Source: Nocardiopsis sp. FR4 (GTDB lineage: Bacteria > Actinomycetota > Actinomycetes > Streptosporangiales > Streptosporangiaceae). Taken from it: DNA of 64,000 bases. Positions 22,510-39,107 of the stretch are shown piece by piece. The stretch lies in contig NZ_VWVV01000005.1 in NCBI RefSeq assembly GCF_009830945.1, positions 248,001 to 312,000 of the forward strand, read 5' to 3'. The notes under the pieces were generated by a model, which saw only the letters and a program-made list of their open reading frames with translations, was not told the DNA's origin and did not search any database. Numbering within the stretch: position 1 is the stretch's first letter; each line of letters starts with the position of its first letter. Position numbers and translations under genes: made by a program.

Positions 22510-23751
22510 ATGACCGCGACCAGTGCCCCGCCCCACGACACCCGGCCGCGTGCGGGGACCGGCGCCTACCGGCGCACGGTCGTCGCGTTGGTGGCCGCCG
22601 CCGTGGCCACCTTCGCCCAGCTGTGGTCGGTCCAGCCGATCCTGCCCGCCATCGCCGACGGCTTCTCCGCCCCGGCCTCCCAGGCCGCCCTCGCGGCCTC
22701 GCTGGCCACCGGAGGGCTGGCCGGGTTCACCCTGGTATGGAGCGGGGCGGCCGACCGGTTCGGGCGCGCCCGCGTCATCGCGGTCTCGCTGCTGGCGGCC
22801 ACCGTGCTGGGCTGCGCGATCCCCCTGGCCGGGGAGCTGTGGCTGCTGCTGCTCCTGCGCGCCCTGCAGGGCGCCGCCCTGGGCGGGGTCCCGGCGGCGG
22901 CGGTGGCCTACCTGGCCGAGGAGGTCCACCCCGCCGACGCGCCGCGCGCCACGGGCCTGTACATCGCGGGCAACCCGCTGGGCGGCATGGGCGGGCGCCT
23001 GCTGGCCGGGTTCGCCGCCGAGCTGGGCGGGTGGCAGTGGGGGGTGGCGGCCAACACCCTGGTGGGCCTGGCCGCGCTGGCGGTGTTCGTCCTCGTGCTG
23101 CCCCGCGGCCGCCGGGAGGGCGCCTCCGCGCGGAGCGGGGGCACCCGGGCCGCGCCGGGCATGGCCGCGCGCCTGCGCTCGGCCCTGACCACCCGGGGCC
23201 TGCTCCCGCTCTACGCCCAGGCGCTGCTGCTCATGGGCGCCTTCATGACCGTCTACAACCTCCTGGGCTTCCGGCTGACGGCCGAGCCGTTCGGGCTCTC
23301 CCAGGCCGCCGCCTCCCTGCTCTTCGTGGCCTACACCGCGGGGATGCTCGGCTCGGCGGTGGCCGGGAACGCCACCGCCCGCTGGGGCGCATACGCCGTG
23401 CTCGCCCTCTCCACCGCGCTGATGGCCCTGGGGCTGGGCGGGCTGTTCAGCACGGCGCTGCCGGGCCTGCTGGCGGCCCTGCTGGTGATGACCTTCGCCT
23501 TCTTCGCGGCCCACGCCACCGCCTCGGCCTGGGTGGGGCGGCGCGCGGTGGCCGGGCGGGCCCAGGCCATGGCCGTCTACACGCTGGCCTACTACCTGGG
23601 CGCCAGCCTCTTCAGCTGGCTGGGCGGCCTGGTCTACGACGCGGTGGGCTGGGGCGGCGCGGTGGTCTTCGCGCTGGGGCTGTGCGCGTGCGCGGCGCTG
23701 GGGGGGCTGCGCCTGCGCCGCCTGCCGGAGGCGGGCACCCCCTCCCATTGA
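22510..23751 (+). CDS. MFS transporter, YnfM-like drug exporter family
   Basis: 413 residues with about 12 hydrophobic segments and the MFS loop 2-3 motif (SGAADRFGRARVIAVS). An Arg-rich loop splits the two six-helix halves near residue 210. LysR plus divergent MFS is a typical exporter unit. The gene ends two bases before the Zur/Fur-like box of the next gene, but nothing ties it to that regulon. Confidence 0.85.
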   Translation: MTATSAPPHDTRPRAGTGAYRRTVVALVAAAVATFAQLWSVQPILPAIADGFSAPASQAALAASLATGGLAGFTLVWSGAADRFGRARVIAVSLLAATVLGCAIPLAGELWLLLLLRALQGAALGGVPAAAVAYLAEEVHPADAPRATGLYIAGNPLGGMGGRLLAGFAAELGGWQWGVAANTLVGLAALAVFVLVLPRGRREGASARSGGTRAAPGMAARLRSALTTRGLLPLYAQALLLMGAFMTVYNLLGFRLTAEPFGLSQAAASLLFVAYTAGMLGSAVAGNATARWGAYAVLALSTALMALGLGGLFSTALPGLLAALLVMTFAFFAAHATASAWVGRRAVAGRAQAMAVYTLAYYLGASLFSWLGGLVYDAVGWGGAVVFALGLCACAALGGLRLRRLPEAGTPSH

Positions 23752-23752
23752 T

Positions 23753-23771
23753 TACGATAATCATTATCGTA
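23753..23771. promoter_or_regulatory. Perfect Fur-family (Zur-like) box upstream of the isomerase-like gene
   Basis: TACGATAATCATTATCGTA is a perfect 9-1-9 palindrome containing GATAATCATTATC, the core shared by Fur-family operators. It ends 20 bp before the isomerase-like start. With the classic Zur box at 25890 nearby, zinc control is the likeliest reading; iron is the alternative. Confidence 0.8.
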
Positions 23772-23791
23772 TTCTCGGAGGAGGAAACCCC

Positions 23792-24562
23792 ATGATCGTC
23801 CCCGGCCTGGCCTCGGTCACCTTCCGGCACCTGAAGGGCGACGAGATCGTCGACCTGGCCGCCCAGGCGCGCCTGGGCGCGCTGGAGTGGGGCGCCGACG
23901 TCCACGTGCGCCCGGGCGAGCACGCCGAGGCCCGGCGCCTGCGCCGGCGCTGCGCCGACGCCGGGCTGTACGTGCCCACCTACGGCTCCTACTACAAGGC
24001 CGGCCACACCGACCCGGCCGAGCTCGACCCCGTCCTGACCACCGCCGCCGAGCTGGGCGCCGCGCGCGTGCGGGTCTGGGCCGGAACCCTGGGCTCGGAC
24101 CGGGCCGCACCCCGGGACCGACGCCGTGTGGCCGAGGACCTGCGCCGCTGCGCGGTGCGGGCCGCCGCCCACGGGCTGGCCGTCACGGTCGAGTACCACG
24201 TGGAGTCGCTCACCGACACCTCGGACTCGGCCACCCGGCTGTTCTCCGAGGCGGGCGGTGAGCACCCGCTGGTCCCGCACTGGCAGCCGCGCGAGGAGCC
24301 CGACACCGCCCGGTGCCTGGAGGAGGTCAAGGCCCTGCTGCCCGACCTGGGCCACGTGCACGTCTTCTCCTGGGGCGCGGACGGGTTCACCGAGCGGCTG
24401 CCCCTGGCCGAGCGCGCCGACCTGTGGCGGCCCGTCCTGGAGCTGCTGGCCGGTGACGGCCGACGGCGCGAGGCCGTCCTGGAGTTCGTCCCCGAGGACT
24501 CCCCGGAGGCCTTCCTGCGCGACGCCGCCTTCCTGCGGGAGGTGATCGCCGAGGTCGCCTGA
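23792..24562 (+). CDS. Sugar-phosphate isomerase/epimerase-like TIM barrel (AP-endonuclease-2 fold)
   Basis: 256 residues of the xylose-isomerase-like TIM-barrel family. Candidate metal ligands are the Glu and His residues in LEWGADVHV, VEYHVES, GHVHVFSWG and LEFVPEDS. There is no signal peptide. A GGAGGAGG site precedes the ATG, and the Fur-family box sits just upstream, so it belongs to the metal-starvation regulon. Its role beside the RiPP operon is unknown: it may tailor the peptide, supply a precursor, or act independently. Confidence 0.8.
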   Translation: MIVPGLASVTFRHLKGDEIVDLAAQARLGALEWGADVHVRPGEHAEARRLRRRCADAGLYVPTYGSYYKAGHTDPAELDPVLTTAAELGAARVRVWAGTLGSDRAAPRDRRRVAEDLRRCAVRAAAHGLAVTVEYHVESLTDTSDSATRLFSEAGGEHPLVPHWQPREEPDTARCLEEVKALLPDLGHVHVFSWGADGFTERLPLAERADLWRPVLELLAGDGRRREAVLEFVPEDSPEAFLRDAAFLREVIAEVA

Positions 24563-24592
24563 GCGGCCCGTCCGGGGTGGCCGCCGGCGGGC

Positions 24593-25858
24593 TCAGGTCC
24601 GGCCCACGGCGGCCTCCTGCGCGGTGTCCGCGCCGCGCAGGGCCTGTCCGCGCAGCGGCGAGGCCCAGGCGGCCGCCACGCCCACCGCCAGCACCGCCAG
24701 TCCCGCGGCCAGGCCGCCGCGCGGTCCCCACGCCGTCGCCGCCACCGCGCCGGCCAGGGCCGCGCCCACGGGCTGGCCCACTCCCCAGGAGAGCATCCGC
24801 GCGGTGGTGCTCACCCGCGACTGCAGGTGGTCGGGGCTGATCCGCTGCCGGTAGGTGATCGCGTTGATCACCACCACCGAGTAGGCGGCGCCCCACAGCG
24901 ACGCGCACACCGCCGCCGCCAGCCAGTGGGTGCTCAGCACCACCGCCAGGCCGCACAGGAGCGAGACGGGCAGCCCGCCCAGGGCCAGGCGCGGTGCGCC
25001 CAGCGCCCCGGCCAGCTTGGGGGTGAGCGCCGAGGCGGCCAGCGCCCCCACGCCCCAGCAGCTGAACAGCACCGCCAGGCGGGCGTCGCCGCTGGGCGCC
25101 ACGCCCAGGGTGCGGTCGGCCCAGGGCACGAGCATCGCCAGCCACGCCCCGCTGGCCGCCGAGTGGCTGGCGCCGACCAGGGTCAGCGTGCGCACGGTGG
25201 GCTCGCGCCACAGGAACCCCAGCCCCTCGCGGACCTGGCCCACCAGGGCGCCCATCCCGTCGCGGGCGCCCGTCTGCGGGCGGGGGTGCGACAGGGGCAC
25301 GGTGATCGCGCGCAGCAGGGCGGCCGAGGCCAGGGCGGTCAGCGCGTTGAGCGCGATCAGCGGGGCGGGTGCCCAGACGGCCACCGCCAGGCCCGCCAGC
25401 GCGGGTACCACCAGTTCCACGGCGGTGGTGGTGCCGTACACGCGCGCGTAGGACTCGGTCAGGCGGGCCCGGCCCACCAGGGTGGGCAGGGCGCCGAAGT
25501 TGGCGGCGTCGAAGAACACGTACAGGGTCTGCACCGCGAAGGAGGCGGCCAGTACGTGGGCGGGGGTGAGCGCCCCCATGGCCCAGGCGGCCGGGACCGA
25601 GACCAGGGCCAGGGCGGTGAGCAGGTCGCAGGCCACCATCAGGCGGCGCCGGTCGACGCGGTCGGCCAGGGCGCCCGCGGCCAGGCCGAAGAGCAGGTAG
25701 GGCAGGGCGCCCGTGGCGGCCGCGGCGGAGGTCCAGGCCGCGGACGCGGTCATCTGGTACACGAGCACCGGCACGGCCACGGTCGCGACGAGGGTCCCCG
25801 CCGTGGACACGGCGCGGGAGAGCAGGTAGGGGCGAAAGCCCGGGGGAGCGGGAGTCAT
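24593..25858 (-). CDS. MFS exporter divergent from the RiPP operon (EntS-like)
   Basis: 421 residues with about 12 membrane spans and the MFS motif GALADRVDRRRLMVACD. It resembles the enterobactin-exporter/macrolide-efflux branch of MFS. It is divergent from the precursor-peptide gene and shares the Zur box at 25890-25908, so both directions can be repressed by zinc. The natural role is export of the mature modified peptide; this rests on location and regulation, not on sequence specificity. Confidence 0.87.
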   Translation of the reverse strand: MTPAPPGFRPYLLSRAVSTAGTLVATVAVPVLVYQMTASAAWTSAAAATGALPYLLFGLAAGALADRVDRRRLMVACDLLTALALVSVPAAWAMGALTPAHVLAASFAVQTLYVFFDAANFGALPTLVGRARLTESYARVYGTTTAVELVVPALAGLAVAVWAPAPLIALNALTALASAALLRAITVPLSHPRPQTGARDGMGALVGQVREGLGFLWREPTVRTLTLVGASHSAASGAWLAMLVPWADRTLGVAPSGDARLAVLFSCWGVGALAASALTPKLAGALGAPRLALGGLPVSLLCGLAVVLSTHWLAAAVCASLWGAAYSVVVINAITYRQRISPDHLQSRVSTTARMLSWGVGQPVGAALAGAVAATAWGPRGGLAAGLAVLAVGVAAAWASPLRGQALRGADTAQEAAVGRT

Positions 25859-25889
25859 GTGAACTGTGTCACCCTGTTCTGGTGTGGAA

Positions 25890-25908
25890 AATGAAAACGG
25901 TTTTCATT
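25890..25908. promoter_or_regulatory. Perfect Zur box in the divergent MFS/precursor promoter
   Basis: AATGAAAACGGTTTTCATT is a perfect 9-1-9 palindrome. Its core TGAAAACGGTTTTCA matches the actinobacterial Zur consensus (TGAAAATGATTTTCA in Streptomyces, similar in mycobacteria). It lies 31 bp from the MFS start and 54 bp from the precursor start, so it can control both. Confidence 0.9.
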
Positions 25909-25962
25909 ATGGTAGTACCGTCCGGCTGACACCGGCACACCCCACACCGAAAGGGAGTACAC

Positions 25963-26079
25963 ATGGACAACGTCTTCGTCCGCGTCGAGCAGGAGCGCGA
26001 GCTGCCGCACAACTCCGCCAGCCACAGCAACGCCCTGGTCGAGAACCCCTTCGAGGCCCCCGACACCGACAACGAGTAA
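25963..26079 (+). CDS. Candidate RiPP precursor peptide, 38 residues
   Basis: A small ORF directly after the Zur box and before the cyclodehydratase genes, with an AAGGGAG ribosome site and stop TAA. The N-terminal half is charged (VFVRVEQERELP, residues 4-15) and would be the leader. It is followed by HNSASHSN (16-23), rich in Ser and His. The tail is acidic (ending DTDNE). There is no Cys, so any azoles would be oxazol(in)es from Ser or Thr. His plus oxazole nitrogen would make good zinc ligands. No homologue is recognised; the call rests on size, position and composition. Confidence 0.78.
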   Translation: MDNVFVRVEQERELPHNSASHSNALVENPFEAPDTDNE

Positions 26080-26140
26080 CCCCCTCGACGCGGGGCCGCT
26101 CCCTCCGGGCGGCCCCGCCCCCACGCCCCGGGAGGCCCCC

Positions 26141-27031
26141 ATCACCCCCTCGCGTCTGCGCCCCGGAACGGCGCTGTTCACCCACCCCGAGGGCACGACC
26201 GCGCTCCGCGCCGCCGACGGATCCCTCTACGACATCGCCCTGCCCGCCGAGGACCTGGCCGCCGCCCGCACGGCCCTGAGCGGCGAGGAACCCTCCCCGC
26301 TGCTGGAACCCTTCGCCCGCGCCGGACACCTGGGCGAGCGCCCCGCCTGGCCCCGCGAGCGCGCCGCCGTCGGCCTCCTGTACACCCGCCCCGCACCGGC
26401 CGGGCACGGCACGGAGCGCCCCGCGCCGCCGCTCCCGCACACCGGGGCCCCACACCACGCACCCGTCCCGTCCGTGACGCCCCGGGACCCGGCGGCCCTG
26501 GACACGGCCCTGCGCCGCGCGGGCGCCGACCCCCACCCGCTCGACCCCGCCGACCTGCCCGCCGCCGCCCACGGCCTGGCCGCCCTGCTGTGGATCCACG
26601 ACGGCCCCGCCCCCCGGGCCTGGACCGGCCTGGACACCCTGCCCGAGCACGGCACCGCCTGCCTGCGCGTGAGCCGCGAGGGCCGCCACGCCCTCCTGGA
26701 ACCCCTCACCGCCGCACCCGGCGACCCCACCCACGCCCACGTGCGCGCCCGCCGCCTGGCCGCCGCCGGATCCGGACACCGCCACCAGAGCGCCTACTGG
26801 GCCGACCCCGCACCCCTGACCGGCCACGAGGCCCTCGACGCCGCCGACCTGGCCCTGGTCACCGCGCTGGCCGTGGCGGACCTGCGCGCCTGGGCCACCG
26901 GCGCCCCCGCACCCGCCGGCGACCTCACCCCCCGGGCCCTGCCCGCCACCCGGCGCCTGCGCGTGCTCGCCCTCGACTCCGGCGCCGTCCACGACCACCC
27001 GCTCCTGCCGGTCCCGCCCAGCGCCCCATGA
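26141..27031 (+). CDS. RiPP leader-binding (RRE) / E1-like cyclodehydratase partner protein
   Basis: About 296 residues. The first 80 (RLRPGTALFTHPEGTTALR onward) resemble the PqqD-like winged-helix leader-binding domain that opens TOMM cyclodehydratase C proteins. The end (RRLRVLALDSGAVHDHPLLP) matches the usual C-terminal block of the family, but the CxxC zinc pairs and an adenylation motif are missing, so it should be a docking scaffold. No ATG or GTG lies near the domain start: GGGAGG is followed five bases later by ATC (26141). The first GTG in frame (26474) would delete the RRE. Its stop overlaps the next ATG. Confidence 0.72.
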   Translation: MTPSRLRPGTALFTHPEGTTALRAADGSLYDIALPAEDLAAARTALSGEEPSPLLEPFARAGHLGERPAWPRERAAVGLLYTRPAPAGHGTERPAPPLPHTGAPHHAPVPSVTPRDPAALDTALRRAGADPHPLDPADLPAAAHGLAALLWIHDGPAPRAWTGLDTLPEHGTACLRVSREGRHALLEPLTAAPGDPTHAHVRARRLAAAGSGHRHQSAYWADPAPLTGHEALDAADLALVTALAVADLRAWATGAPAPAGDLTPRALPATRRLRVLALDSGAVHDHPLLPVPPSAP

Positions 27032-28500
27032 GCGTCCAGCACCTGAGCGTCCCCGCGCCCGACGGCGCACGCCTGGCCGCCACGCTCGTCCTGCCCGACA
27101 CCTCGCCCGGACCACACCCGGCCGTGCTCATCCGCACCCCCTACGACCGCGCCGCCCTGCTGCCCGAGGCCGCCGGATGGGCCCGCGCGGGCTTCGCGTG
27201 CCTGGTCAGCGACGTGCGGGGCCGCCACGGTTCCACCGGAGACTTCCGCCCCTACCGCGACGAGGCCCGTGACGGCACCGCGGTCCTGGAACACCTCCTG
27301 GCCACCGGCGCCTGCGACGGACGCGTCCTGCTCGCCGGGGCCTCCTACGGCGCCCACTGCGCCCTGACCACCGCGCTCACCGGCCACCCGGCCCTGCGCG
27401 GGGTCCTGGCCGCCGTCCCCGCCCTGGGCCCGGGCGAGACCGCCCGCGAGTACGGCGGCGCCGCCCGCCTGGCCTGCCGGGTGGGCTGGTGGACCGAGCA
27501 CGGAGGCACCTCCCGGCCCCGCGCCCCGCGACCCCACCGCCACCTGCTGGCCGCCCTGCCCCCCACCGACATCCCCCACCGCCTCCTGGGAACCACCCCG
27601 CCCGGCTGGGAGGAGCTGTGGCGGGCCCCCGAACGCTCACCGCTGTGGGCGGACCTGCCCCGCGCCCGCCCGCCCCTGCTGGCCGTCGGCGGAACCCGCG
27701 ACCCCTTCGCCGCCCACACCCTGGACCTGGCCCGCGCCTGGGGCGGACCCGTGCGCCTGCTCCTGGGCCCCTGGGGGCACACCCTGGACGCACCCGACCC
27801 CGGCGCGGCCCTGGCCGGACGCCGGATCGGCGCCTGCTACCTGGCCTGGGCCCGCGCCGCCCTGGACACCCCGCCCTCGGGCCGCCGCGCCCTGCTCGCC
27901 GTCAACGCCTCCGGCGCCTGGCGCCGCTTGGACCTGGACGCCCCGCCCACCCGCGGTGTGCCCGCGGACCTGGAGCGCACCGCCTTCCTCGCCGACCCCC
28001 GCGACCCGGTGCGCTCGGACCCGGACGGGGGCGAGAGCGCCGCCACCGCGCTCGCCCACACCGCGCCCCTGCCCGGGGGAGAGCTGCGCGGCCCCCTGCG
28101 CCTGCGGCTGACCGCCACCACCGACGCCCCCGACGCCGACTGGTCCGTGCGCGTCCTCCTCACCCCCGCCGACCCCGCATCGGCGTACGCCCCCCGCCCC
28201 GCCCTGCTCACGCACGCCATCGCCCGCCACCGCCACCGGCCCGGCCGCCCCCACCGCCTGCACCTGCGCACCCCGCCCGTGGGCGCCGTCCTGCCCGCCG
28301 GATCCCGGCTGCGCGTGGAGATCGCCGGACACCACTGGCCCGCCCACGCCCGCAACCCGCACACCGGCGCCGACCCCGCCCGGGCCCGCCGCCTGCTGCC
28401 CAGCCGGCGCACCGTCCACCAGGTACGCCTGTACCTGCCCTGGCACCCCGCCGGAACCGACCCCGTCCACCCCGACGACCTCCTCCAGGAGCTGACATGA
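27028..28500 (+). CDS. CocE/NonD (X-Pro dipeptidyl-peptidase-like) hydrolase
   Basis: 490 residues of the S15/CocE family: alpha/beta-hydrolase domain with nucleophile elbow GASYGAH (about 95-101), acid in GGTRDPFA, His in GPWGHTLD, then a C-terminal jelly-roll domain (from about residue 325) ending in the typical HHWPAHARNPHTG block. Relatives cleave after X-Pro at peptide N-termini or hydrolyse esters. Placed between the leader-binding and YcaO genes with ATGA overlaps on both sides, it may mature the peptide; the predicted leader ends in Pro (residue 15). There is no signal peptide. Confidence 0.85.
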   Translation: MSVQHLSVPAPDGARLAATLVLPDTSPGPHPAVLIRTPYDRAALLPEAAGWARAGFACLVSDVRGRHGSTGDFRPYRDEARDGTAVLEHLLATGACDGRVLLAGASYGAHCALTTALTGHPALRGVLAAVPALGPGETAREYGGAARLACRVGWWTEHGGTSRPRAPRPHRHLLAALPPTDIPHRLLGTTPPGWEELWRAPERSPLWADLPRARPPLLAVGGTRDPFAAHTLDLARAWGGPVRLLLGPWGHTLDAPDPGAALAGRRIGACYLAWARAALDTPPSGRRALLAVNASGAWRRLDLDAPPTRGVPADLERTAFLADPRDPVRSDPDGGESAATALAHTAPLPGGELRGPLRLRLTATTDAPDADWSVRVLLTPADPASAYAPRPALLTHAIARHRHRPGRPHRLHLRTPPVGAVLPAGSRLRVEIAGHHWPAHARNPHTGADPARARRLLPSRRTVHQVRLYLPWHPAGTDPVHPDDLLQELT

Positions 28501-29843
28501 CCGGCCCCGCACTCGACGTCGACGCCCTGGTCGACCCGGTCGGCGGCATCGTGCGCCGCCTCGTCCCGGTCGACCCCCTGCCCGGCATGCCGCCCCGCTA
28601 CCGCAGCCTGACCGCCGAGGTGGCCGACGCCCGCCGCCTGGGCGCCTGGCCCGCCGACCGGGTCAGCATGGGCGCCTCCTTCGGCGACACCGACGCCGCC
28701 CGCACCGCCGCCCTGGGCGAGGCCGTCGAACGCTACTGCGGCAACCGCGTCCCGCCCGGCCTGCGCCGCGCCACCCCGGCCGAACTCGCCCGCGCGGGGG
28801 AGGCCCACCTGGGCCCCGAGGAGCTGTCCTTCTTCGCCCCCTGGCAGTACGCCCAGCCCGGTTTCCCCTACCAGCCCCTCACCGAGGACACCGCGCTGCT
28901 GTGGGCGCGCGGCACCGAGGGCGGCGACCCCTGCTGGGTGCCCGCCTCCTGGGCCTACCTCAACTTCCACACCGGCCGGCGACGCGGCGAGCCCCGCACG
29001 CACCACCTCAACTACGCCGGGATCGCCACCGGCGCCGACCACGCCGACGCCGCCCGCCGCGGCCTCCTCGAACTCCTCGAACGCGACGCCCTGGAACTGT
29101 GGTGGCACCTGGACGGCCCCACCACCGCCATCGACCCCGACTCCGTGCCCGGGCTGACCGCCGAACTCTCCGGCACCCGCCTGCGCGTCCACCTGGTCCA
29201 CCTGCCCACCGAACACCCCGTGGCGTGCGTGGCGGCCGTGGTCGTGGACCCCGAGACCGGTGTGGTCGGCGGGGGAGGGGCCGCCCGGCTGGACCCCGCC
29301 GAGGCCTGCGTCAAGGCGGTCCTGGAGGCCGTGCACACCTGGGTGTTCACCCAGGGGCTGACCGATCCCGAGGGCTGGGTGTTCCAGGCCGTGCGCACCG
29401 GCATCCTCGCCGAGGGCCTCTACCTGCCCTTCCGCCCCGACCGCGACTACCTCGGCCACACGGGGGAGCGCTTCGAACGCGTGCGCGACCTGGGCGCCCA
29501 GGTCCAGGTCTGGCTCGACCCGCGCGTGCAGAAGGACCTGCTGGACCGCTTCACCCGGCCCGAGCGCACCGTGCGGGCCGCCGACCTGCCCGCCGCCACC
29601 GAGGCCGACCTGCGCGCCAGCCTGTCCGCCCGCGGGGTGCGCGTGGTGGAGGTGGACCTGACCACCCCCGACGTGGCGCACACCCCCTGGCGGGTGGTGC
29701 GCACCTGCGCCACCGGGCTGGTCCCCAACGCCCCGGCGGCCTTCCGCTACCTGGGCCTGCCCCGCTGGGGACAGGCCGCACGCGAGCGCGGCTGGGCCGA
29801 CCCCGACACCGGCGCGGTCCTGGCCCCGCCCCCGTTCCTGTGA
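28497..29843 (+). CDS. YcaO-domain cyclodehydratase
   Basis: 448 residues. The YcaO ATP-site signatures are visible: GEAVERY (74-80), ELLERDA (192-198) and AEACVKAVLEAVHTWVF. The C-terminus ends APPPFL, a Pro-rich tail like, but not identical to, the PxPxP end of azoline-forming enzymes. YcaO enzymes phosphorylate the peptide backbone to form azolines, thioamides or amidines. With a leader-binding partner and a SagB-like dehydrogenase beside it and no TfuA, azoline formation on Ser/Thr is most likely. The gene is coupled on both sides by overlapping start/stop codons. Confidence 0.92.
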   Translation: MTGPALDVDALVDPVGGIVRRLVPVDPLPGMPPRYRSLTAEVADARRLGAWPADRVSMGASFGDTDAARTAALGEAVERYCGNRVPPGLRRATPAELARAGEAHLGPEELSFFAPWQYAQPGFPYQPLTEDTALLWARGTEGGDPCWVPASWAYLNFHTGRRRGEPRTHHLNYAGIATGADHADAARRGLLELLERDALELWWHLDGPTTAIDPDSVPGLTAELSGTRLRVHLVHLPTEHPVACVAAVVVDPETGVVGGGGAARLDPAEACVKAVLEAVHTWVFTQGLTDPEGWVFQAVRTGILAEGLYLPFRPDRDYLGHTGERFERVRDLGAQVQVWLDPRVQKDLLDRFTRPERTVRAADLPAATEADLRASLSARGVRVVEVDLTTPDVAHTPWRVVRTCATGLVPNAPAAFRYLGLPRWGQAARERGWADPDTGAVLAPPPFL

Positions 29844-31084
29844 GCGCCCTCCGGGCCCCGGCCGACCCGGTGGCCGCGGCCCTGCACGCCGCCTGGCGCG
29901 GCGCGGACCCCGGCCCCACCCCGTCCGCCGCCCGCCCCCCGGCCGCCCGCCGCTGGCCCGGGCCGGTCCACCCGCTGGAGCGCGCCCCGGGCCGCGGGGC
30001 GGGCGCCCTGCTCGACCTCGCCCTGGCCGCCGACCCCGACCGGGTGACCGGGGGAGTGCGGCTGCGCCGGGTCCCCTCGGCCGGGGGCCGCTACCCGGTG
30101 GAGGCCCACCTGGTCGACTCCGGGACGGTATGGCGCTACGACCCGCTGCGCCACGCCCTGTGCGCCCCCGCCGCCACCGACCACCCGGGCACGGCCGTGG
30201 TGCTGGGCCTGGTGCCCGCGCGCACCGTGTGGCGCTACGGTCCGCGCGCGCTGCCGGTACTGCTGCTGGACCTGGGGCACGCGGTGGCCGCCCTGGGCGC
30301 CGCCGCCTCCGCCTGCGGTCTGCGCGCACGCGCCCTCCTGGCCCCGGGCCCCGAACTGGCCCGCGCCGCCCGCCTGCCCTGGCGGGACGGGGCCGTGCGC
30401 TGGCCCGGCGCCGCCCCCGAGTACCCCCTGGCCGTCGTCTCCCTGGAAGCCGGACCCCCCGGCCGGGAGGCCGACGCGGTGCGGCCCGCCCCCGCGATCG
30501 GGCGGGCCGCACCTTCCCCGCGCCCTCCCGCCGCCGAGTGGGAGGGCGCCCCGCCCCCGCAGGTGGACGGCGCCGCCGCGCAGATGGTGGCGGCGGCCCT
30601 GGCCCGTCTGTGCGCCGCACCCGCGGCGGAACCGCCCCTGCCCGCGGACACGGTCGGCCCCGCCGTCCTGCTGGAGCGCCGCAGCGCCCCCTGGGCGGCG
30701 CTCGCCTCCCGTTCGGACGCGCCCTCCCCCGACCCCGCGCCGGTCCTGGCCGCGGCCGCCGCCCACCTGGGCGCCGACCGGGTCGTGTGCCTGGACCCGC
30801 GCGGGCACGCCGAGGCCCTGGCCGCCCTGGCCCCGCGCTCGTGCGGCCAGCCGGCCGTGGCCGAAGCCGACCGGCTCCTGCTGCTGCTCGGCTCCCCCGC
30901 GGCGGGTCCGCACACGCTGTCCGAGCACGTGGGAGCCGGTGCCGCCGCCCACGCCGCCTGGTTGGCGGCCGCCGCCCAGCGCCGCCCGGCCCGCCCGGTG
31001 GGCTGCTGGATCGACACCCTCCTGAGCACACCCCACGGCAGGCGCCGCGTCCTGCACGCCCTGGCCCTGGGCCCCGCTGCCTGA
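29840..31084 (+). CDS. SagB-type nitroreductase-fold dehydrogenase
   Basis: 414 residues from a GTG overlapping the YcaO stop. The N-terminal half has the SagB/McbC signature RRVPSAGGRYPVEAHLV and the hydrophobic LLLDLGHAVAALGAAASACGL helix that packs on FMN. The second half is a degenerate repeat with little recognisable sequence. In linear azole peptides this enzyme oxidises azolines to azoles. Its presence separates this cluster from thioamide and amidine YcaO pathways. The sequence is unusually Ala/Pro-rich, so the catalytic Lys/Tyr could not be assigned. Confidence 0.78.
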   Translation: MSALRAPADPVAAALHAAWRGADPGPTPSAARPPAARRWPGPVHPLERAPGRGAGALLDLALAADPDRVTGGVRLRRVPSAGGRYPVEAHLVDSGTVWRYDPLRHALCAPAATDHPGTAVVLGLVPARTVWRYGPRALPVLLLDLGHAVAALGAAASACGLRARALLAPGPELARAARLPWRDGAVRWPGAAPEYPLAVVSLEAGPPGREADAVRPAPAIGRAAPSPRPPAAEWEGAPPPQVDGAAAQMVAAALARLCAAPAAEPPLPADTVGPAVLLERRSAPWAALASRSDAPSPDPAPVLAAAAAHLGADRVVCLDPRGHAEALAALAPRSCGQPAVAEADRLLLLLGSPAAGPHTLSEHVGAGAAAHAAWLAAAAQRRPARPVGCWIDTLLSTPHGRRRVLHALALGPAA

Positions 31085-31111
31085 GAAAACCGCTGGACAT
31101 ACCGGAACGAT

Positions 31112-31130
31112 TGCGATAACCATTTCCATT
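31112..31130. promoter_or_regulatory. Degenerate Zur/Fur-like box at the start of the importer genes
   Basis: TGCGATAACCATTTCCATT shares 13 of 19 positions with the perfect box at 23753 and abuts the ATG of the binding protein. A TGGACA sequence upstream could be a -35. It suggests that the importer genes can also be transcribed separately under the same regulator. Confidence 0.5.
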
Positions 31131-32132
31131 ATGAATCTCCGCTCCTCCCTCGCCGTGCCCGCCACCGTGTGCGCGCTCGCCCTGACCGCCTGCTCCGCCC
31201 CCGACGACGGCCAGGCCGCCGAGGACACCTCCGAGGCCTCGGTCCGGGCCGCCGGCCTGACGGCCGAACCCGTCGAGGCCTCCCTGAGCATCACGGACCC
31301 GCGCGGCACCGCCGTCGAACTCGACGCCGTCCCCGAACGCGTCGTCTGCCTCGTGGCCCTGTGCGACGACATCCTGCTCGAGCTGGGCCTGGAACCCGCC
31401 GCCAGCACCAGCGCCAACCTGCTCGCCCACCCCGCCTACCTCGGTGAGGACCACGGGGTCCCGATCATCCCCGGCGGGTTCGGCGGCGAGGACGTCGAGG
31501 AGATCCTGCGCCAGGAACCCGACCTGGTCATCGGCCTGGCCGGAAGCCACGAGGGCCTGGTGCCCGCCCTGTCCGAGACCACCACCGTCTGGCTCACCGA
31601 CTCCCGCAGCTGGAACGACTCGGTGGAGTACCTGCGCAACGTGGCCGCCCTGACCGACCGGGGACAGGAGCAGGCCGCCGCCGAGCAGGCCTTCTACGAC
31701 ACCCTCGCCCAGGCCCAGGCCACCGCCGCCGAGACCGGCCGGGACGAGCTCACCCCGATCGTCATCTACGGCAGCGACGGCAGCTTCCAGGTCGACTCCC
31801 GGGGATCCATCGTCGGCGGCCTGCTCGGTGAGATCTTCGACTACCCCTGGGAGGACCGCGCCACCGGCGGCCACCAGGCCGGGGGCTCGGACTACTCCAT
31901 GGAGGAGATCCTGGCCGGGGACCCCGACGTGATCTTCCTGGAGTCCTTCACCTTCTCGCCCGAGGACACCACTCTGAGCGAGCAGTTCGCCGAGGACCCC
32001 GTCTGGAACCGGATCACCGCCGTCCGGAACGGCGACGTCCACGAGGTCGACCTGGCCCCCTGGGCCACCGGGCGGGGCACCCGCGCCCTGACCGTGGTCA
32101 TCGAGGACGCCATGGAACTCACCCAGCGGTGA
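31131..32132 (+). CDS. Metallophore-binding lipoprotein (FecB/BtuF type)
   Basis: 333 residues with lipobox LTACSA (Cys near residue 21). The class III binding-protein fold is seen in ERVVCLVALCDDILLELGLE at the start of lobe 1 and DPDVIFLESF in lobe 2. It binds metal chelates for the two permeases that follow. There is no ribosome site between the box and the ATG, so the separate message may be leaderless. Together with the upstream biosynthetic genes it is the expected receptor for the modified peptide. Free metal or haem binding is less likely with this fold. Confidence 0.88.
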   Translation: MNLRSSLAVPATVCALALTACSAPDDGQAAEDTSEASVRAAGLTAEPVEASLSITDPRGTAVELDAVPERVVCLVALCDDILLELGLEPAASTSANLLAHPAYLGEDHGVPIIPGGFGGEDVEEILRQEPDLVIGLAGSHEGLVPALSETTTVWLTDSRSWNDSVEYLRNVAALTDRGQEQAAAEQAFYDTLAQAQATAAETGRDELTPIVIYGSDGSFQVDSRGSIVGGLLGEIFDYPWEDRATGGHQAGGSDYSMEEILAGDPDVIFLESFTFSPEDTTLSEQFAEDPVWNRITAVRNGDVHEVDLAPWATGRGTRALTVVIEDAMELTQR

Positions 32133-33187
32133 GCCAGGAACCCTCCCCCGTGCGGACCCCCTCCCGCACCCGGCGACCGGGGCCGCGCCCTTCCGCGGCC
32201 CCGGTGCTGGTGCTGGCGGGGGCCCTGGCCGCGGCCTGCCTGGCCGCACTGTGCCTGGGCCGCCCCTTCGTCGCCCCCGCCCAGATCCCCGCCGCCCTGG
32301 CGGGCGAGGGCCTGGACAACGTGGTCCTGATCCACATCCGCCTGCCCCGGCTGCTCCTGGGCCTGTTGGCCGGGGCCGCCCTGGGCGCCGCCGGGCTCCT
32401 GCTCCAGGAGGCCCTGCGCAACCCCCTGGCCGTCCCCGAACTGCTGGGGGTCTCCGCGGGAGCGGCGGCCGTGGTCGCCACCGTCACCGTCTTCTCCCTG
32501 CCCCTGGCCGCCCCGCTGCTGCCCGCGGCGGCCCTGGCCGGGGGCGTGGCGGGCGGCGCGGTGTGCCTGCTGGCCGCCCGCCGCGCCCGCGCCGCCGACT
32601 CCATGCTGCTCACCGGCGCGGCCGTCTCCACCGCCCTGACCGGGGTGGTCTACGCCGTCACCAGCATGGCCGACCAGTTCCAGCTGGGCCTGGTGCTGCG
32701 CTACCTCATGGGCTCGCTCGTGGGCGCCGACTGGCAGGACGTGGCCCTGGTGGCGCCCTGGGTGGGCCTGGCCCTGCCCGCCGTGGTGCTGTGCCTGCCC
32801 CTGCTGGGGGTGCTGGCCCTGGGCGACGACGGCGCCTCGGCCCTGGGCATGCGCCCGCGCACCGCCCGCGCGGTGGTCCTGGCGGTGGCCGCGACCCTGG
32901 TGGCGGTCGTGGTCGCCGCCTGCGGGCCCGTGGCCTGGGTCGGGTTCCTGGCCCCCATGCTCGCCCGCCGCCTGGCCCCGCTGGCCTCCCCGGCCGCCCG
33001 CGCGGGGTGGGCGGTGCTGCTGGGCGCCACCCTGACCGTCGCCGCCGACGTGGCCGCCCGCACGCTGCTGTACCCGATCGAACTGCCCCTGGGCGCCTTC
33101 ACCGGAACCGTCGGCGTGGTCGGCGGCCTGCTGTTGCTGCGCGGCCGCACCGGGGGAGAGGCCCTGGACTCCGGAGGAGACCGGTGA
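32129..33187 (+). CDS. FecCD-family ABC permease 1
   Basis: 352 residues, about ten membrane spans. Family segments are IRLPRLLLGLLAGAALGAAG, LRNPLAVPELLGVSAGAA and GPVAWVGFLAPMLAR. The GTG start overlaps the lipoprotein stop. It is half of the metal-chelate channel. Its coding strand is extremely C-rich, as in the neighbouring genes. Confidence 0.92.
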   Translation: MSQEPSPVRTPSRTRRPGPRPSAAPVLVLAGALAAACLAALCLGRPFVAPAQIPAALAGEGLDNVVLIHIRLPRLLLGLLAGAALGAAGLLLQEALRNPLAVPELLGVSAGAAAVVATVTVFSLPLAAPLLPAAALAGGVAGGAVCLLAARRARAADSMLLTGAAVSTALTGVVYAVTSMADQFQLGLVLRYLMGSLVGADWQDVALVAPWVGLALPAVVLCLPLLGVLALGDDGASALGMRPRTARAVVLAVAATLVAVVVAACGPVAWVGFLAPMLARRLAPLASPAARAGWAVLLGATLTVAADVAARTLLYPIELPLGAFTGTVGVVGGLLLLRGRTGGEALDSGGDR

Positions 33188-34296
33188 ACGCCCCCGCCAC
33201 CCCCCCTGCTCCCACCACTCCCGCCGCTCCGGCCGTCCCCGCACCCCCCGCACGTCCCCCCGTGCCGCCCGCCCCCTCCTCCCGGCGCCGCTTCCTGGCC
33301 CTGACCGCCCTGCTGCTGGCCGCCGCCGCCCTGGGCGCGCTGGGGCAGCTGCTCAGCGGGCGCGGGCTGGCCCCCGACCAGCTGTGGGCGGTCCTGACGC
33401 TGGACGGCACCGACCCGGTGGGCGAGCGCATCCTGTGGGGCCTGCGCCTGCCCCGGGCCGGGGTCGCCCTGCTGGCCGGGGCCGCCCTGGGCGTGTCCGG
33501 ACTGCTGCTCCAGACCACCCTGCGCAACCCCCTGGCCTCGCCCGAGCTCACCGGTGTGGGCGGCGGCGCGGTCCTGGGCGTCCTCCTCGCGCTGCGCCTG
33601 GGGCTGGCCTCCGGGCAGGCGCACACCACCGTGGTCGCCGCCATGCTCGGCGGCCTGGCCGGGGGAGCGCTGCTGTGGCTGCTGGCCGGGCGCCGCCGCG
33701 CCGACCCGGTCTGGCTCACGATCAACGGCGTCATCGTCGGTGTGGCCCTGGCCGGGGCCAACGCCATCCTGCTCGTGCTCAGCCAGGCCGAGGCGGCCGG
33801 GGCGATGCGCTGGCTCACCGGTTCGCTGACCGGTATGACCACCTCCCACCTGGCCCTGCTGGCCCCCTGGGCGCTGGCGGGCCTGGCCCTGGCCTGGGTG
33901 TACGCACCCGTCCTGGAGATCCTGCACGGCGGCGACGAGCACGCCGCGTCCGTGGGCCTGGCGCCCTCGCCCACCCGGCTGGCCGCCCTGTCCTGCGCGG
34001 TCCTGCTGGCCTCGGCCGCCGTGGCCGTGGTCGGCGTCCTGGGCTTCGTCGGACTCCTCGCCCCGCTGATCGCCACCTCCCTGGTGGGACGCCGCCCCCG
34101 CCAGCTCGTCGTGCTCTCGGCCCTGGTCGGCGCCGCGGTGGTCGCCGGAGCCGACGCCGTGGCCCAGGCGGTCACCACCCTGGTTCCCACCGGCCCCCAG
34201 ACCCAGCGCCTGGGCCTGCCCGCCGGATCGGTCACCGCCGTCGGCGGGGCCGCCCTGCTGGTGTGGGCGCTGCGCCGCCACACACCCCACGCCTGA
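33184..34296 (+). CDS. FecCD-family ABC permease 2
   Basis: 370 residues beginning at a GTG overlapping the previous stop. A 35-residue Pro/Ala-rich N-terminus precedes about ten spans with LRLPRAGVALLAGAALGVSG, LRNPLASPELTGVGGGA and GFVGLLAPLIATSLVG. It pairs with permease 1. Confidence 0.92.
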   Translation: MNAPATPPAPTTPAAPAVPAPPARPPVPPAPSSRRRFLALTALLLAAAALGALGQLLSGRGLAPDQLWAVLTLDGTDPVGERILWGLRLPRAGVALLAGAALGVSGLLLQTTLRNPLASPELTGVGGGAVLGVLLALRLGLASGQAHTTVVAAMLGGLAGGALLWLLAGRRRADPVWLTINGVIVGVALAGANAILLVLSQAEAAGAMRWLTGSLTGMTTSHLALLAPWALAGLALAWVYAPVLEILHGGDEHAASVGLAPSPTRLAALSCAVLLASAAVAVVGVLGFVGLLAPLIATSLVGRRPRQLVVLSALVGAAVVAGADAVAQAVTTLVPTGPQTQRLGLPAGSVTAVGGAALLVWALRRHTPHA

Positions 34297-34307
34297 AGGA
34301 GAGTTCC

Positions 34308-35099
34308 GTGGACACCGACACCGACACCGTCTACCGGGTGGAGGGGGTCTCCTTCGGGTACGGGGACACCGCCGTGCTGGAGGAGGTGGACCTGCGCCTG
34401 TCCGCCGGGCAGACCCTGGCCCTGGTCGGGCGCAACGGCTGCGGCAAGTCGACCCTGCTGAGGCTGCTCGCGGGCACCCTGCGCCCGCGCCGGGGCCGGA
34501 TCCTGCTCCGGGGCCAGGACCTGTCCCAGATGTCGCGCCGGGCCGTGGCCCGGCGGGTGGCGGTGCTGCACCAGTCGCTGCCCCCGGTACACGGGATGAC
34601 GGTGCGCCGCCTGGTGCGCCAGGGCCGCTTCGCCCACCGGGGCGTGCTGGGAATGCTCAACGAGGCCGAGGACGAGGCCACGCGTTCGGCGATGGAGCGC
34701 GCGGGGGTGGCGGGTCTGGCCGACCGGCCCCTGGAGCACCTCTCGGGCGGGGAGCGCCAGCGGGTGCGCCTGGCCCTGGCCCTGGCCCAGCAGACGCCCG
34801 TGCTGCTGCTGGACGAGCCCACCACCTACCTGGACGTGCGCCACCAGTTGGAGGTGCTGGAACTGGTGGCCGCCTTCGGCCGGGAGCTGACCGTGGTGAT
34901 GGTGCTGCACGACCTGGACCACGCGGCCCGCTACGCCGACCGGATCGTGGCGCTGCGCCGGGGTCGGGTGGCCGCCCAGGGCACCCCGGAGGAGGTGGTC
35001 ACCGAACCGGTGCTGCGCGAGGTGTTCGGGGTGCGGGCGCGCGTGCTGCGCGACGAGCGCTTCGGCACCCCCTACTGTCGCCTGGACGCACCCGTGTGA
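34308..35099 (+). CDS. ABC ATP-binding protein of the metallophore importer (FepC/BtuD type)
   Basis: 263 residues: Walker A GRNGCGKST, signature LSGGERQR, Walker B LLLDEPTTYLD and H-loop VLHDLDHA, the standard pattern for iron-chelate/B12 importer ATPases. The GTG start has an AAGGAGAG site. It is the last gene of the operon; a hairpin follows at 35119-35148. Confidence 0.93.
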   Translation: MDTDTDTVYRVEGVSFGYGDTAVLEEVDLRLSAGQTLALVGRNGCGKSTLLRLLAGTLRPRRGRILLRGQDLSQMSRRAVARRVAVLHQSLPPVHGMTVRRLVRQGRFAHRGVLGMLNEAEDEATRSAMERAGVAGLADRPLEHLSGGERQRVRLALALAQQTPVLLLDEPTTYLDVRHQLEVLELVAAFGRELTVVMVLHDLDHAARYADRIVALRRGRVAAQGTPEEVVTEPVLREVFGVRARVLRDERFGTPYCRLDAPV

Positions 35100-35235: not shown

Positions 35236-36186
35236 ATGGACGTGCGCCCCGCGGGAATCCACCACGTGACCGCGATCGCCAGCGACCCCCAGGCCAACGC
35301 CGACTTCTACCTCAACGCGTTGGGCATGCGCATGGTCAAGCGCACGGTCAACTTCGACGCGCCCGAGACCTACCACCTGTACTACGGCGACCGGGCGGGC
35401 AACCCCGGCACCATCCTGACCTTCTTCCCCTGGCCCGGCGCCCCCCGCGGGCGGCTGGGCGCGGGGCAGGCCACCACCACGACCTTCTCCGTGCCCGAGG
35501 GCTCCCTGGGCTGGTGGGCCCGCCACCTGGCCGCCCGCGGCGTGGAGGCCACCCGCCCCGCCGAGCGCGGCGAGGAGGACGTGCTCAGCCTGCGCGACCC
35601 CGACGGGCTCGTCCTGGAACTGGCCGCCAGCGCCGACGCCCACGACACCGAGCCCTGGGACCAGGCGGAGGTGCCCGCCGAGCACGCCATCCGCGGCATC
35701 CGCGCGGTCACCCTCACCGAGCACGACGTGGAGGGTACCGTGGAGATGCTCGGCGACCACCTGGGGTTCCGCCTGGCCGACGAACAGGGCGAGCGGCTGC
35801 GCTTCCGCACCAACGCCTCCGGCGAGGGGGTGGGCACCATCGTCGACGTCCTGGCCCGGCCCCGGGCCCCGCGCGGACTGGTCGCCGCCGGGACCGTCCA
35901 CCACGTCGCCTACCGCGCCCCGGACGGCCCCGTGCAGCAGGCCTGGCGCCAGCGGTTGGAGGAGGACGGCGTGGGCGTCACCGAGATCCGCGACCGCTGC
36001 TACTTCACCTCCATCTACTTCCGCGAGCCCGGCGGCGTGCTGCTGGAGATCGCCACCGACGGCCCCGGATTCGACTACGACGAACCCCTGCTGGAGCTGG
36101 GCCGCTCCCTCAAGCTCCCGCCGTGGCTGGAGCCCGACCGCGAGCAGATCGCCGCCCGCCTGCCCGCGATCGAGGTGGACCAGTGA
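35236..36186 (+). CDS. Ring-cleaving dioxygenase, MhqO-like (glyoxalase/VOC superfamily)
   Basis: 316 residues forming two VOC modules. The first has GIHHVTAIASDPQANADFYLNAL, with metal-ligand His, and an LRDPDGLVLELA Glu strand. The second has VHHVAYRAPD and FREPGGVLLEIATDGPGF. It fits hydroquinone-specific extradiol dioxygenases of the MhqO/MhqA group, which protect cells from quinones. Its stop overlaps the start of an MhqD-like esterase, the usual partner. The palindrome upstream suggests control by a quinone-sensing MarR repressor. Confidence 0.88.
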   Translation: MDVRPAGIHHVTAIASDPQANADFYLNALGMRMVKRTVNFDAPETYHLYYGDRAGNPGTILTFFPWPGAPRGRLGAGQATTTTFSVPEGSLGWWARHLAARGVEATRPAERGEEDVLSLRDPDGLVLELAASADAHDTEPWDQAEVPAEHAIRGIRAVTLTEHDVEGTVEMLGDHLGFRLADEQGERLRFRTNASGEGVGTIVDVLARPRAPRGLVAAGTVHHVAYRAPDGPVQQAWRQRLEEDGVGVTEIRDRCYFTSIYFREPGGVLLEIATDGPGFDYDEPLLELGRSLKLPPWLEPDREQIAARLPAIEVDQ

Positions 36187-38084: not shown

Positions 38085-39107
38085 GTGGCCCTGCGCGCGC
38101 CCACCCTCCCGCGCCCCACACGCACCAGGCGCGTCATCCGCCCCCTCGGCCTCCTCCTGGCCCTGGGCGCACTGGCGCTGTGCGTGCTGCTCAGCGTCAC
38201 CGTCGGCGCCAAACCCATCCCCGTCGCCGACGTCTGGGCCGCCCTGACCGCCTACGACGGCACCTACGACCACGACGTCATCCGCACCCTGCGCGTGCCC
38301 CGCACCGTCCTCGGCGTCTTCGTCGGCGCCGCCCTGGGCCTGGCCGGGGCCCTCATGCAGGTCCTGACCCGCAACCCACTGGCCGAACCCGGCATCCTCG
38401 GCGTCAACTCCGGCGCCGCCGCGGCCATGGTCGTCACCACCCTGGCCCTGGGCGCCAGCGCCTCGGTCTGGCCCGCCTTCGCCGGCGCCGCCCTGGCCTC
38501 CGTCGCCGTCTACGCCCTGGGCTCACGCGGCCGGGCCAGCCCCGTACGCCTGGCCCTGGCCGGAACCGCCGTCGCCGTCGTCCTTCAGGGGCTCATCCAC
38601 GGCGTCTTCGTCCTCAACGACTTCGTCTTCGACCGCCTCCGCTTCTGGCAGGTCGGCTCCCTGACCGGCCGCGACCTGGACGTCTTCTGGCAGGTCGCCC
38701 CCTTCCTCGTCACGGGCGTGGTCCTGACCCTGTGCCTGGGCCCCTCCCTGAACGCGGTCGCCCTGGGCGACGACCTGGCCGCCAGCCTGGGCGCCAACAT
38801 CCCCCTCATCCGCGCCGCCACCGCCGTCGGCGTCATCCTGCTGTGCGGCTCGGCCACCGCCGCCGCCGGACCCATCTGGTTCGTGGGCCTGGTCATCCCG
38901 CACGCCGCCCGGCTGGTCACCGGCCCCGACCAGCGCTGGCTGCTGCCCTACTCCGCGCTGCTGGGCGCCATCCTGCTCACCGCCGCCGACACCGTCGGCC
39001 GCGTCGTCGTCCCCAACGCCGAACTGGAGGTCGGGATCATCACCGCCCTCGTCGGCGCCCCCCTGTTCATCGCCCTGGTCCGCAGCAGAAAGATGGCCCG
39101 CCTGTGA
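38085..39107 (+). CDS. FecCD-family ferric-siderophore permease 1
   Basis: 340 residues, about nine or ten spans. Family signatures are LRVPRTVLGVFVGAALGLAG, TRNPLAEPGILGVNSGAAA and GPIWFVGLVIPHAAR. GTG at 38085 starts it. It overlaps the next gene by four bases. The iron box upstream indicates siderophore import. Confidence 0.92.
   Translation: MALRAPTLPRPTRTRRVIRPLGLLLALGALALCVLLSVTVGAKPIPVADVWAALTAYDGTYDHDVIRTLRVPRTVLGVFVGAALGLAGALMQVLTRNPLAEPGILGVNSGAAAAMVVTTLALGASASVWPAFAGAALASVAVYALGSRGRASPVRLALAGTAVAVVLQGLIHGVFVLNDFVFDRLRFWQVGSLTGRDLDVFWQVAPFLVTGVVLTLCLGPSLNAVALGDDLAASLGANIPLIRAATAVGVILLCGSATAAAGPIWFVGLVIPHAARLVTGPDQRWLLPYSALLGAILLTAADTVGRVVVPNAELEVGIITALVGAPLFIALVRSRKMARL

Follow-up and report, generated by a model that had tools for sequence, protein, structure and literature searches.

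Streptamidine, a ribosomally synthesized and post-translationally modified peptide (RiPP) from Streptomyces albidoflavus J1074 (MIBiG BGC0002115), was described by Russell et al. 2021 (PMC8442711), whose gene names amiA-E and amiF1-F4 are used throughout. According to the available part of that paper, an amidine ring links His1 and residue 2, Ser3 and Thr5 are unmodified as judged by nuclear magnetic resonance (NMR), the gene requirement and the amidine chemistry are established for this Streptomyces product, and amiT1-T2 are important but not essential (PMC8442711). Streptamidine-like clusters were reported from >230 species, with no role assigned to them; metal import was suspected from the fecBCDE-like genes, and a role in signalling or development was proposed (PMC8442711). 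In the available main text the word zinc occurs once, in a negative binding test, and no zinc control is mentioned. Here we describe a cluster of this family in a 64,000-nucleotide stretch of Nocardiopsis sp. FR4 (contig NZ_VWVV01000005.1; the whole stretch is called the window), in which the precursor gene amiA is preceded by the predicted binding box of the zinc regulator Zur that is common to the canonical zinc genes of the same genome.

The window operon and the J1074 cluster have the same precursor family, amiB-C-D-E, a FecBCDE-type importer and a core of the form HxSAxH, which reads HNSASH in the window and HLSATH in J1074 (PMC8442711). They differ from each other in layout, as far as the available description of J1074 goes. 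In the window the importer genes come directly after amiE, where no amiT1-T2 pair is found, a major facilitator superfamily (MFS) gene is divergent from amiA, and an extra gene for a triose-phosphate isomerase (TIM)-barrel protein is present. A first-pass annotation of this DNA had proposed a zinc-regulated locus making an oxazol(in)e peptide metallophore, with the remark that no described YcaO-made zincophore was known. The cluster family was in fact described in 2021, and a metal link was suspected there, tested and found negative; evidence for Zur control is absent from the available part of that text.

A zinc-gene box upstream of amiA

The box between the MFS gene and amiA, AATGAAAACGGTTTTCATT, is a perfect 9-1-9 palindrome, as had been noted on first pass, and matches the Zur consensus at 17 of 19 positions (Table 1). 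Boxes were scored against the consensus AATGAAAATGATTTTCATT, which fits both the Streptomyces coelicolor Zur motif tGaNNatSatNNtCa and the actinobacterial znuA motif taaTGaNAANNNTTNtCANta given in the available part of PMC5472717. When the window's own genome (6,119,003 bases) was searched with the 17-mer ATGAAAACSGTTTTCAT allowing at most three mismatches, four places were found, and none with the reversed control pattern under the same conditions. The four sites belong to the ami operon, to znuA (PF01297, 260 bits), to a ribosomal operon with L33, type-B L31 (NF002462, above cut-off) and an L32-like gene (the last assigned by reading), and to an SBP_bac_5 gene. AATGAAAACGGTTTTCATT is the 7-1-7 Zur box common to the canonical zinc genes of this genome. 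The SBP_bac_5 gene (L031, G000:C37:21178) encodes a lipoprotein whose best matches, under cut-off, are nickel-binding proteins; it may mark a second metal importer among the Zur-controlled genes.

Conservation was examined in two samples that may overlap. The named sample holds the best-scoring 80 of 203 AmiD relatives in named genomes, mostly Streptomyces loci; the J1074 locus lies outside it, other Streptomyces loci with core HLSATH are included, and the Williamsia-like loci L080, L081 and L083 are close copies of one another. The class sample consists of 394 genomes of the same class, the window's own included. A box scoring at least 13 lies upstream of amiA in all 74 named loci scored, spanning 20 genera by record title (score 13 in 3 loci, 14 in 6, 15 in 15, 16 in 24, 17 in 10 and 18 in 16), and a 75th named locus, L068, has one by eye (15/19 at 7592). 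Equal-length control windows of the same named loci reached 13 in 44 of 4668 cases, some of which may be true boxes because only the surroundings of amiA, F1 and the TIM-barrel gene were excluded. Shuffled palindromes scored in a median of 1 of 74 loci; the best shuffles, at 58 of 74, are an unclean control because they kept the letters GAAAA and with them most of the real box. Twenty YcaO loci that lack amiA (9 to 11 kb each) gave best scores of 10-13, none of them 14 or more, versus 73 of the 80 ami loci with at least 14. A chance palindrome was considered and rejected on the combined outcome of the genome count, the shuffles, the control windows and the YcaO loci outside the ami family.

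In the class sample the precursor family was detected at E 0.001 in 19 of 394 genomes, 18 of them above the NF040714 cut-off. These yielded 21 distinct loci, the window's own and two extra copies from genome G081 included; within 350 bp upstream, 18 of the 21 have a box of at least 13, and two (L013, L016) reach 12. G081 itself carries three precursor genes (L019, L025, L027), two boxed and one without a box. Precursors of the related motif B (NF040715) are present in seven of the 394 genomes, which belong to a single family, and all seven loci have a box-like palindrome (12-17 of 19) that starts 31-45 bp before the matched stretch; L155 has a further box, 15/19, at -193. As a separate observation, a genome of the same genus as the window (G384; L021/L049) has a streptamidine precursor interrupted by TAG and with an altered core, preceded by a box of 16/19. 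No amiB-E relatives were found by tblastn in the surrounding 20 kb, and this locus is perhaps a decaying cluster.

Boxes are also found at the importer. A score of at least 13 was reached upstream of F1 in 57 of the 68 named loci examined, and in L135 and L143 the box lies between amiF1 and a divergent large open reading frame (ORF) where amiX sits; the L135 ORF had no Pfam or NCBIfam match. In the window, weaker Zur-like boxes precede amiF1 and the TIM-barrel gene, the latter including the perfect 9-1-9 palindrome TACGATAATCATTATCGTA (Table 1). Both had been pointed out on first pass, both score 13/19, and both recur at equivalent positions in Nocardiopsis sp. TSRI0078 (L051). A score of 13 is weak on its own, given the control windows above. 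Within 260 bp upstream of the TIM-barrel relative, a box of at least 13 occurs in six of 13 loci (L051, L053, L063, L065, L067, L068). This distribution suggests that a dedicated importer would be co-regulated with amiA.

Ten other ami genomes were searched with TGAWAAYSRTTWTCA at no more than one mismatch. Nine of them have sites, 34 in all, and G192, whose ami box scores 12, has none at this threshold. Neighbourhoods were fetched for 15 of the 34 sites. Five lie at ami loci themselves (L133-L136, L143), two at L33-L31-L32 (G206, G223), one at an AztA/AztB zinc transporter pair above cut-offs (G277), one at a gene whose product shares 69% identity with the own-genome SBP_bac_5 protein (G348), and one at a CobW-type GTPase that resembles MRF/ZigA without reaching their cut-offs (G206). 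By its sequence and its company, the box very probably places the window operon under Zur control. The first-pass view that a ribosomal peptide is encoded together with a FecBCD-type importer in one Zur-regulated set is supported across many loci.

Family membership of the cluster

The precursor and operon of the window are a streptamidine-family RiPP cluster. AmiA matches NF040714 well above its cut-off (Table 1), and AmiD is 52-63% identical to nine other AmiD proteins from loci with amiA, versus 36% to a plasmid-encoded Streptomyces YcaO protein without an annotated amiA in its vicinity. The closest named relative of AmiD, among the best 80 of 203, is that of Nocardiopsis sp. TSRI0078 (86% identical).

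Homologous loci that consistently lacked the precursor or the importer would have spoken against the first-pass proposal, and this is not what we found. A script located amiA in 74 of the 80 named loci, to which L068 adds one by eye; the other five (L076, L089, L098, L106, L119) are truncated by a contig end within the biosynthetic genes or shortly before them. By tblastn in the 63 named loci longer than 20 kb, F1 and F2 relatives are each present in 61 and F3 and F4 in 62, the F4 count being inflated because F4 also matches other ABC (ATP-binding cassette) ATPases. In the same 63 loci, amiB relatives were found in 55, located between amiA and amiC, amiE relatives in 45 and MFS relatives in 23. 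The MFS gene is divergent beside amiA in Nocardiopsis-like and many Pseudonocardiaceae-type loci and is placed elsewhere in others, and most Streptomyces-type loci have no divergent MFS gene and show two further downstream ABC ATPase matches where amiT1-T2 sit. TIM-barrel relatives (51-80% identical) occur in 13 of the 80 named loci, mostly beside importer genes or amiD/amiE, and the window protein gave one weak match to solved structures, AsbF (E 0.0077).

Two loci deserve separate mention. L160, on the linear plasmid pNit of Rhodococcus rhodochrous, is a streptamidine cluster with an annotated amiA, core HLSATH and a box of 14/19 about 0.1 kb upstream, and the ami cluster can therefore be plasmid-borne; in a YcaO search of a plasmid collection, the Lactiplantibacillus matches were weak. 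Six loci of the 2021 paper are from firmicutes, a group in which Zur has a different box. L083, recorded as Kitasatospora arboriphila, equals L081 of Williamsia muralis at 20127 of 21347 positions compared without gaps (94%), and is likely a contamination or a mislabelled genome.

Core peptide, expected product and AmiF1

The predicted core of the window AmiA, HNSASH, is followed by SNALVENPF. In the 74 named precursors, the hexapeptide that precedes SNALV is HLSATH (21), HNSASH (19), HDSASH (18), THSAGH (7), HASASH (7), THSATH (1) and HASATH (1); every one of these motif-A cores has Ser3, His6 and a second His at position 1 or 2. The kept His pair suits an imidazole ligand pair and may equally reflect recognition by an enzyme.

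The azol(in)e product expected on first pass was set aside because of the precursor family and the published NMR. The features of an azole cluster, that is, a thiazole/oxazole-modified microcin (TOMM) cluster, were not found with core HNSASH and a SagB-like match (TIGR03605) far below its cut-off (Table 1). Deletion of amiE gives oxazoline-like shunt products, and AmiE is needed though streptamidine is not oxidised (PMC8442711, available part). An oxazoline is at most an intermediate on the route to the product, and the expected mass loss is one water, not 18 or 20 Da per Ser/Thr as first suggested.

The importer lipoprotein AmiF1 contains the motif C73-L-x3-C78-x-D80, of which C73, C78 and D80 are invariant in an alignment of 19 sequences; CLxxxCxD is present in all 70 named loci with an F1 match. 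The motif is not universal, since the importer lipoprotein of L160 lacks it by reading, and a search in the more divergent importers of L035, L041, L042, L046 and L047 gave nothing convincing. The AlphaFold model of AmiF1 (mean pLDDT, the predicted confidence score, 88) matches FecB, HtsA, YfiY and other siderophore-binding proteins, and in it the motif runs from the last part of strand 71-73 into the beginning of helix 76-84, a region that we take to border the ligand cleft in this fold. The Cys pair may form a disulphide or a metal site.

A proposed zincophore cycle and competing explanations

We propose, with a probability slightly above one half (about 0.52), that the locus is a Zur-controlled streptamidine-family cluster making an exported and re-imported zincophore. 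The observations behind this proposal are the family membership, the zinc-gene box and its conservation, the kept importer genes, and the two His and Ser3 of every motif-A core. Some contribution of the ami peptide to zinc acquisition, in whatever form, is reasonably probable; that it is a true zincophore is evenly balanced. In the proposed cycle, Zur would sit on the box upstream of amiA when zinc is present and shut amiA-E and the divergent MFS gene, probably acting likewise on the importer and the TIM-barrel gene through their weaker boxes. Under zinc starvation the 38-aa precursor would be made, AmiB and AmiD (with AmiE) would activate the backbone, and AmiC, which is expected to remove the leader, would cut it. 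Attack of the free His1 amine on residue 2 would then form a six-membered amidine ring, and the product would be HNSASH less one water, with a predicted [M+H]+ of 634.269, or a labile relative of larger size. For HLSATH less water the predicted [M+H]+ is 647.326, and the zinc species are expected near 709.24 (HLSATH) and 696.18 (HNSASH). Export would be by the MFS protein, two imidazoles, the amidine and the C-terminus would hold zinc, AmiF1 would capture the product outside, and AmiF2-F4 would bring it in with its zinc.

Several results weigh against this cycle. L027 has no box (best score 9), L013 and L016 reach only 12, and the L016 score is equalled by 3 of 100 shuffles. Five of the 15 fetched sites in other ami genomes (L131, L132, L140, L141, L145) have no tool-named zinc gene beside them; an ORF next to L131 presumably resembles, from our reading, the metal-transport protein CbiM. 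Eleven of the 68 F1 upstream regions score below 13. The TIM-barrel gene is directly before F1 in seven of these 11, three of which (L063, L065, L067) are boxed before the TIM-barrel gene; some low scores arise because that gene intervenes or because the stretch that was scored starts 60 bases upstream of the match (L051). The paired His is absent from motif-B cores, so that His-His chelation is not common to all boxed relatives. The published experiments, as given in the available part of the 2021 paper, carry the most weight. Streptamidine bound no metal in the chrome azurol S (CAS) assay or in liquid chromatography-mass spectrometry (LC-MS) assays, the metals tested being iron, cobalt, copper, magnesium, manganese, nickel and zinc, Zn(II) included in the LC-MS; an amiD mutant had no phenotype under metal starvation; and deletion of amiF1-F4 abolished production in the heterologous cluster (PMC8442711), which is odd for a simple importer. 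These negatives are perhaps not conclusive: LC-MS, if run under acidic conditions, would remove zinc from imidazoles; a mutant that retains further importers of zinc does not have to show a defect; and the hexapeptide that was assayed is perhaps not the end product, as it bears no mark of AmiE although this enzyme is essential. More tentatively, and at slightly less than even odds, the streptamidine family would be the first class of ribosomal zincophores, in which the 2021 hexapeptide either is free of zinc or derives by breakdown from a larger, labile zinc ligand, and the zinc complex would be handed to the FecB-type protein via Cys-x4-Cys-x-Asp. Such a larger zinc ligand would explain why the unoxidised product needs AmiE.

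The same published results could mean that the peptide is Zur-controlled without being a chelator, namely a zinc-starvation signal or communication peptide read through import by AmiF1-F4. Signalling or development is what the 2021 authors suggest; the absence of metal binding and of a starvation phenotype fits it, the loss of production on importer deletion resembles an auto-induction loop (PMC8442711, available part), and motif-B cores are boxed despite lacking the His pair. A signal of this kind is nevertheless unlikely in our estimate, as the best structural matches of AmiF1 are siderophore-binding proteins and all 74 motif-A cores retain the His pair. A soft metal would match the Cys pair of AmiF1, and the SBP_bac_5 protein whose gene also has the box comes closest to nickel-binding proteins, at scores far under their cut-offs; both would fit a metallophore for cobalt, nickel or copper that Zur controls as a zinc substitute or that is blocked by zinc. 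This is distinctly unlikely, because the genes that share the box are a zinc set and the LC-MS binding assays with Co, Cu and Ni were negative in the available account (PMC8442711).

An oxazol(in)e zincophore of the TOMM type, with azoles on Ser/Thr as the first-pass annotation had it, draws on a YcaO protein just above the TOMM SagD cut-off, on the SagB-like protein and on the shunt products described above. We consider it very unlikely given the unmodified Ser3 and Thr5 of streptamidine, the distance of the SagB-like protein from its cut-off and a window core with two Ser only. Nor does the regulator itself leave much room for doubt. Boxes of the Fur family resemble one another and the genome has three FUR-family genes, so the palindrome could in principle be the site of an iron, peroxide or nickel regulator; with its other close genome copies before znuA, the L33/type-B-L31 operon and the SBP_bac_5 gene, and similar company in other genomes, a regulator other than Zur is extremely unlikely.

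Gene organization of the window

The features of the locus are collected in Table 1. Profile searches agree with the operon order read on first pass, and the start and stop overlaps reported for the biosynthetic genes are seen in the sequence: the amiC ATG at 27028 overlaps the preceding TGA at 27029, the amiD ATG at 28497 overlaps the amiC TGA at 28498, and the amiE GTG at 29834 lies inside amiD, which ends at 29843. The gene between amiA and amiC had been read as encoding a leader-binding protein. The gene is there and is amiB-like, the partner of YcaO in the published cluster; its product gave no family profile match at a meaningful E-value, and the start was corrected. The likely 5' end offers no ATG, GTG or TTG, and the best start is an ATC downstream of a strong GGAGG stretch. 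The same ATC is found in L051 (~7699), and an ATC start of amiB is probable in these two Nocardiopsis-like loci from their sequences; gene finders may miss amiB because of it.

Outside the operon, no box of at least 14 was found around the glyoxalase/dioxygenase-like gene or the second FecCD permease region.

Table 1. Boxes and genes of the ami locus in the window (positions counted from the first nucleotide of the window)
Feature	Positions	Strand	Evidence and remarks
ABC ATPase-like stretch	~17.7-18.4 kb		30% to F4
Two overlapping Zur-like boxes	23747..23771	.	20 bp upstream of TIM-barrel gene; TACGATAATCATTATCGTA at 23753-23771, 13/19 to consensus
TIM-barrel gene, xylose-isomerase-like	23792..24562	+	PF01261 40.6 bits (cut-off 31.1); accessory in this ami sub-type
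MFS transporter gene	24593..25858	-	PF07690 62.6 bits; Zur-box intergenic region common with amiA
Zur box AATGAAAACGGTTTTCATT	25890-25908	.	core 15-mer 25892-25906; 17/19 to consensus
amiA, streptamidine-family precursor, 38 aa	25963..26079	+	NF040714 66.4 bits (cut-off 40), E 1.5e-18
amiB-like	26141..27031	+	position and tblastn relatives; best start ATC at 26141
amiC, CocE/NonD hydrolase (S15 peptidase-like)	27028..28500	+	TIGR00976 129.3 bits (cut-off 66.3), PF02129 117.1 bits
amiD, YcaO cyclodehydratase	28497..29843	+	TIGR03604 223.5 bits (cut-off 219.25), PF02624 150.8 bits
amiE, divergent SagB-like flavin dehydrogenase	29834..31084	+	TIGR03605 27.6 bits, below cut-off 78.4
Zur-like box, imperfect	31112..31130	.	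13/19; directly 5' of amiF1 start
amiF1, FecB-like substrate-binding lipoprotein (Peripla_BP_2)	31131..32132	+	PF01497 59.9 bits
amiF2, FecCD permease	32129..33187	+	PF01032 209.2 bits
amiF3, FecCD-type permease	33184..34296	+	FhuB/FecD-family models, at most 174 bits, below curated cut-offs
amiF4, FecE-like ATPase	34299..35099	+	PF00005 123.1 bits; FecE is the top-scoring NCBIfam model (257.1 bits, under its cut-off of 375)
Glyoxalase/dioxygenase-like gene	35236-36186		3' of importer
Additional Zur-like box	36894		13/19, unexplained
FecCD permease gene	38085 (region 38085-40195)		followed by a further permease-like frame

Comparison with known systems

Among the titles returned by searches of the open-licence literature, none dealt with a ribosomal zincophore or with streptamidine clusters controlled by Zur; a closed-access report or preprint could exist. 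The cluster family (2021) and the suspicion of a metal link were already known, and the Zur-box evidence is apparently new. The Zur box found ahead of the precursor gene in almost all members examined fixes the condition of need, zinc starvation, and points to where the true product should be sought; the conserved box therefore turns an orphan natural product into a testable hypothesis of zinc uptake or zinc signalling. A ribosomal amidine peptide may add new chemistry to the few known zinc carriers.

Staphylopine and pseudopaline are zincophores that are induced by starvation, exported and re-imported, as is proposed here for the ami product, but they are built by opine chemistry with no ribosomal precursor. 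Methanobactin is a ribosomal peptide metallophore like the proposed ami product, and differs in that it binds copper and is made by MbnB/MbnC, not by YcaO. For the YcaO products klebsazolicin and bottromycin, we know of no zinc regulation. Both have a YcaO-made amidine ring like that of streptamidine, and both are antibiotics, according to the available part of PMC8442711. The nearest parallel in regulation is coelibactin, whose Zur-repressed zincophore cluster in S. coelicolor has in common with the window a 7-1-7 Zur box before a metallophore pathway, whereas coelibactin itself is a non-ribosomal peptide made by enzymes unrelated to those of ami, as described in the available part of PMC5472717.

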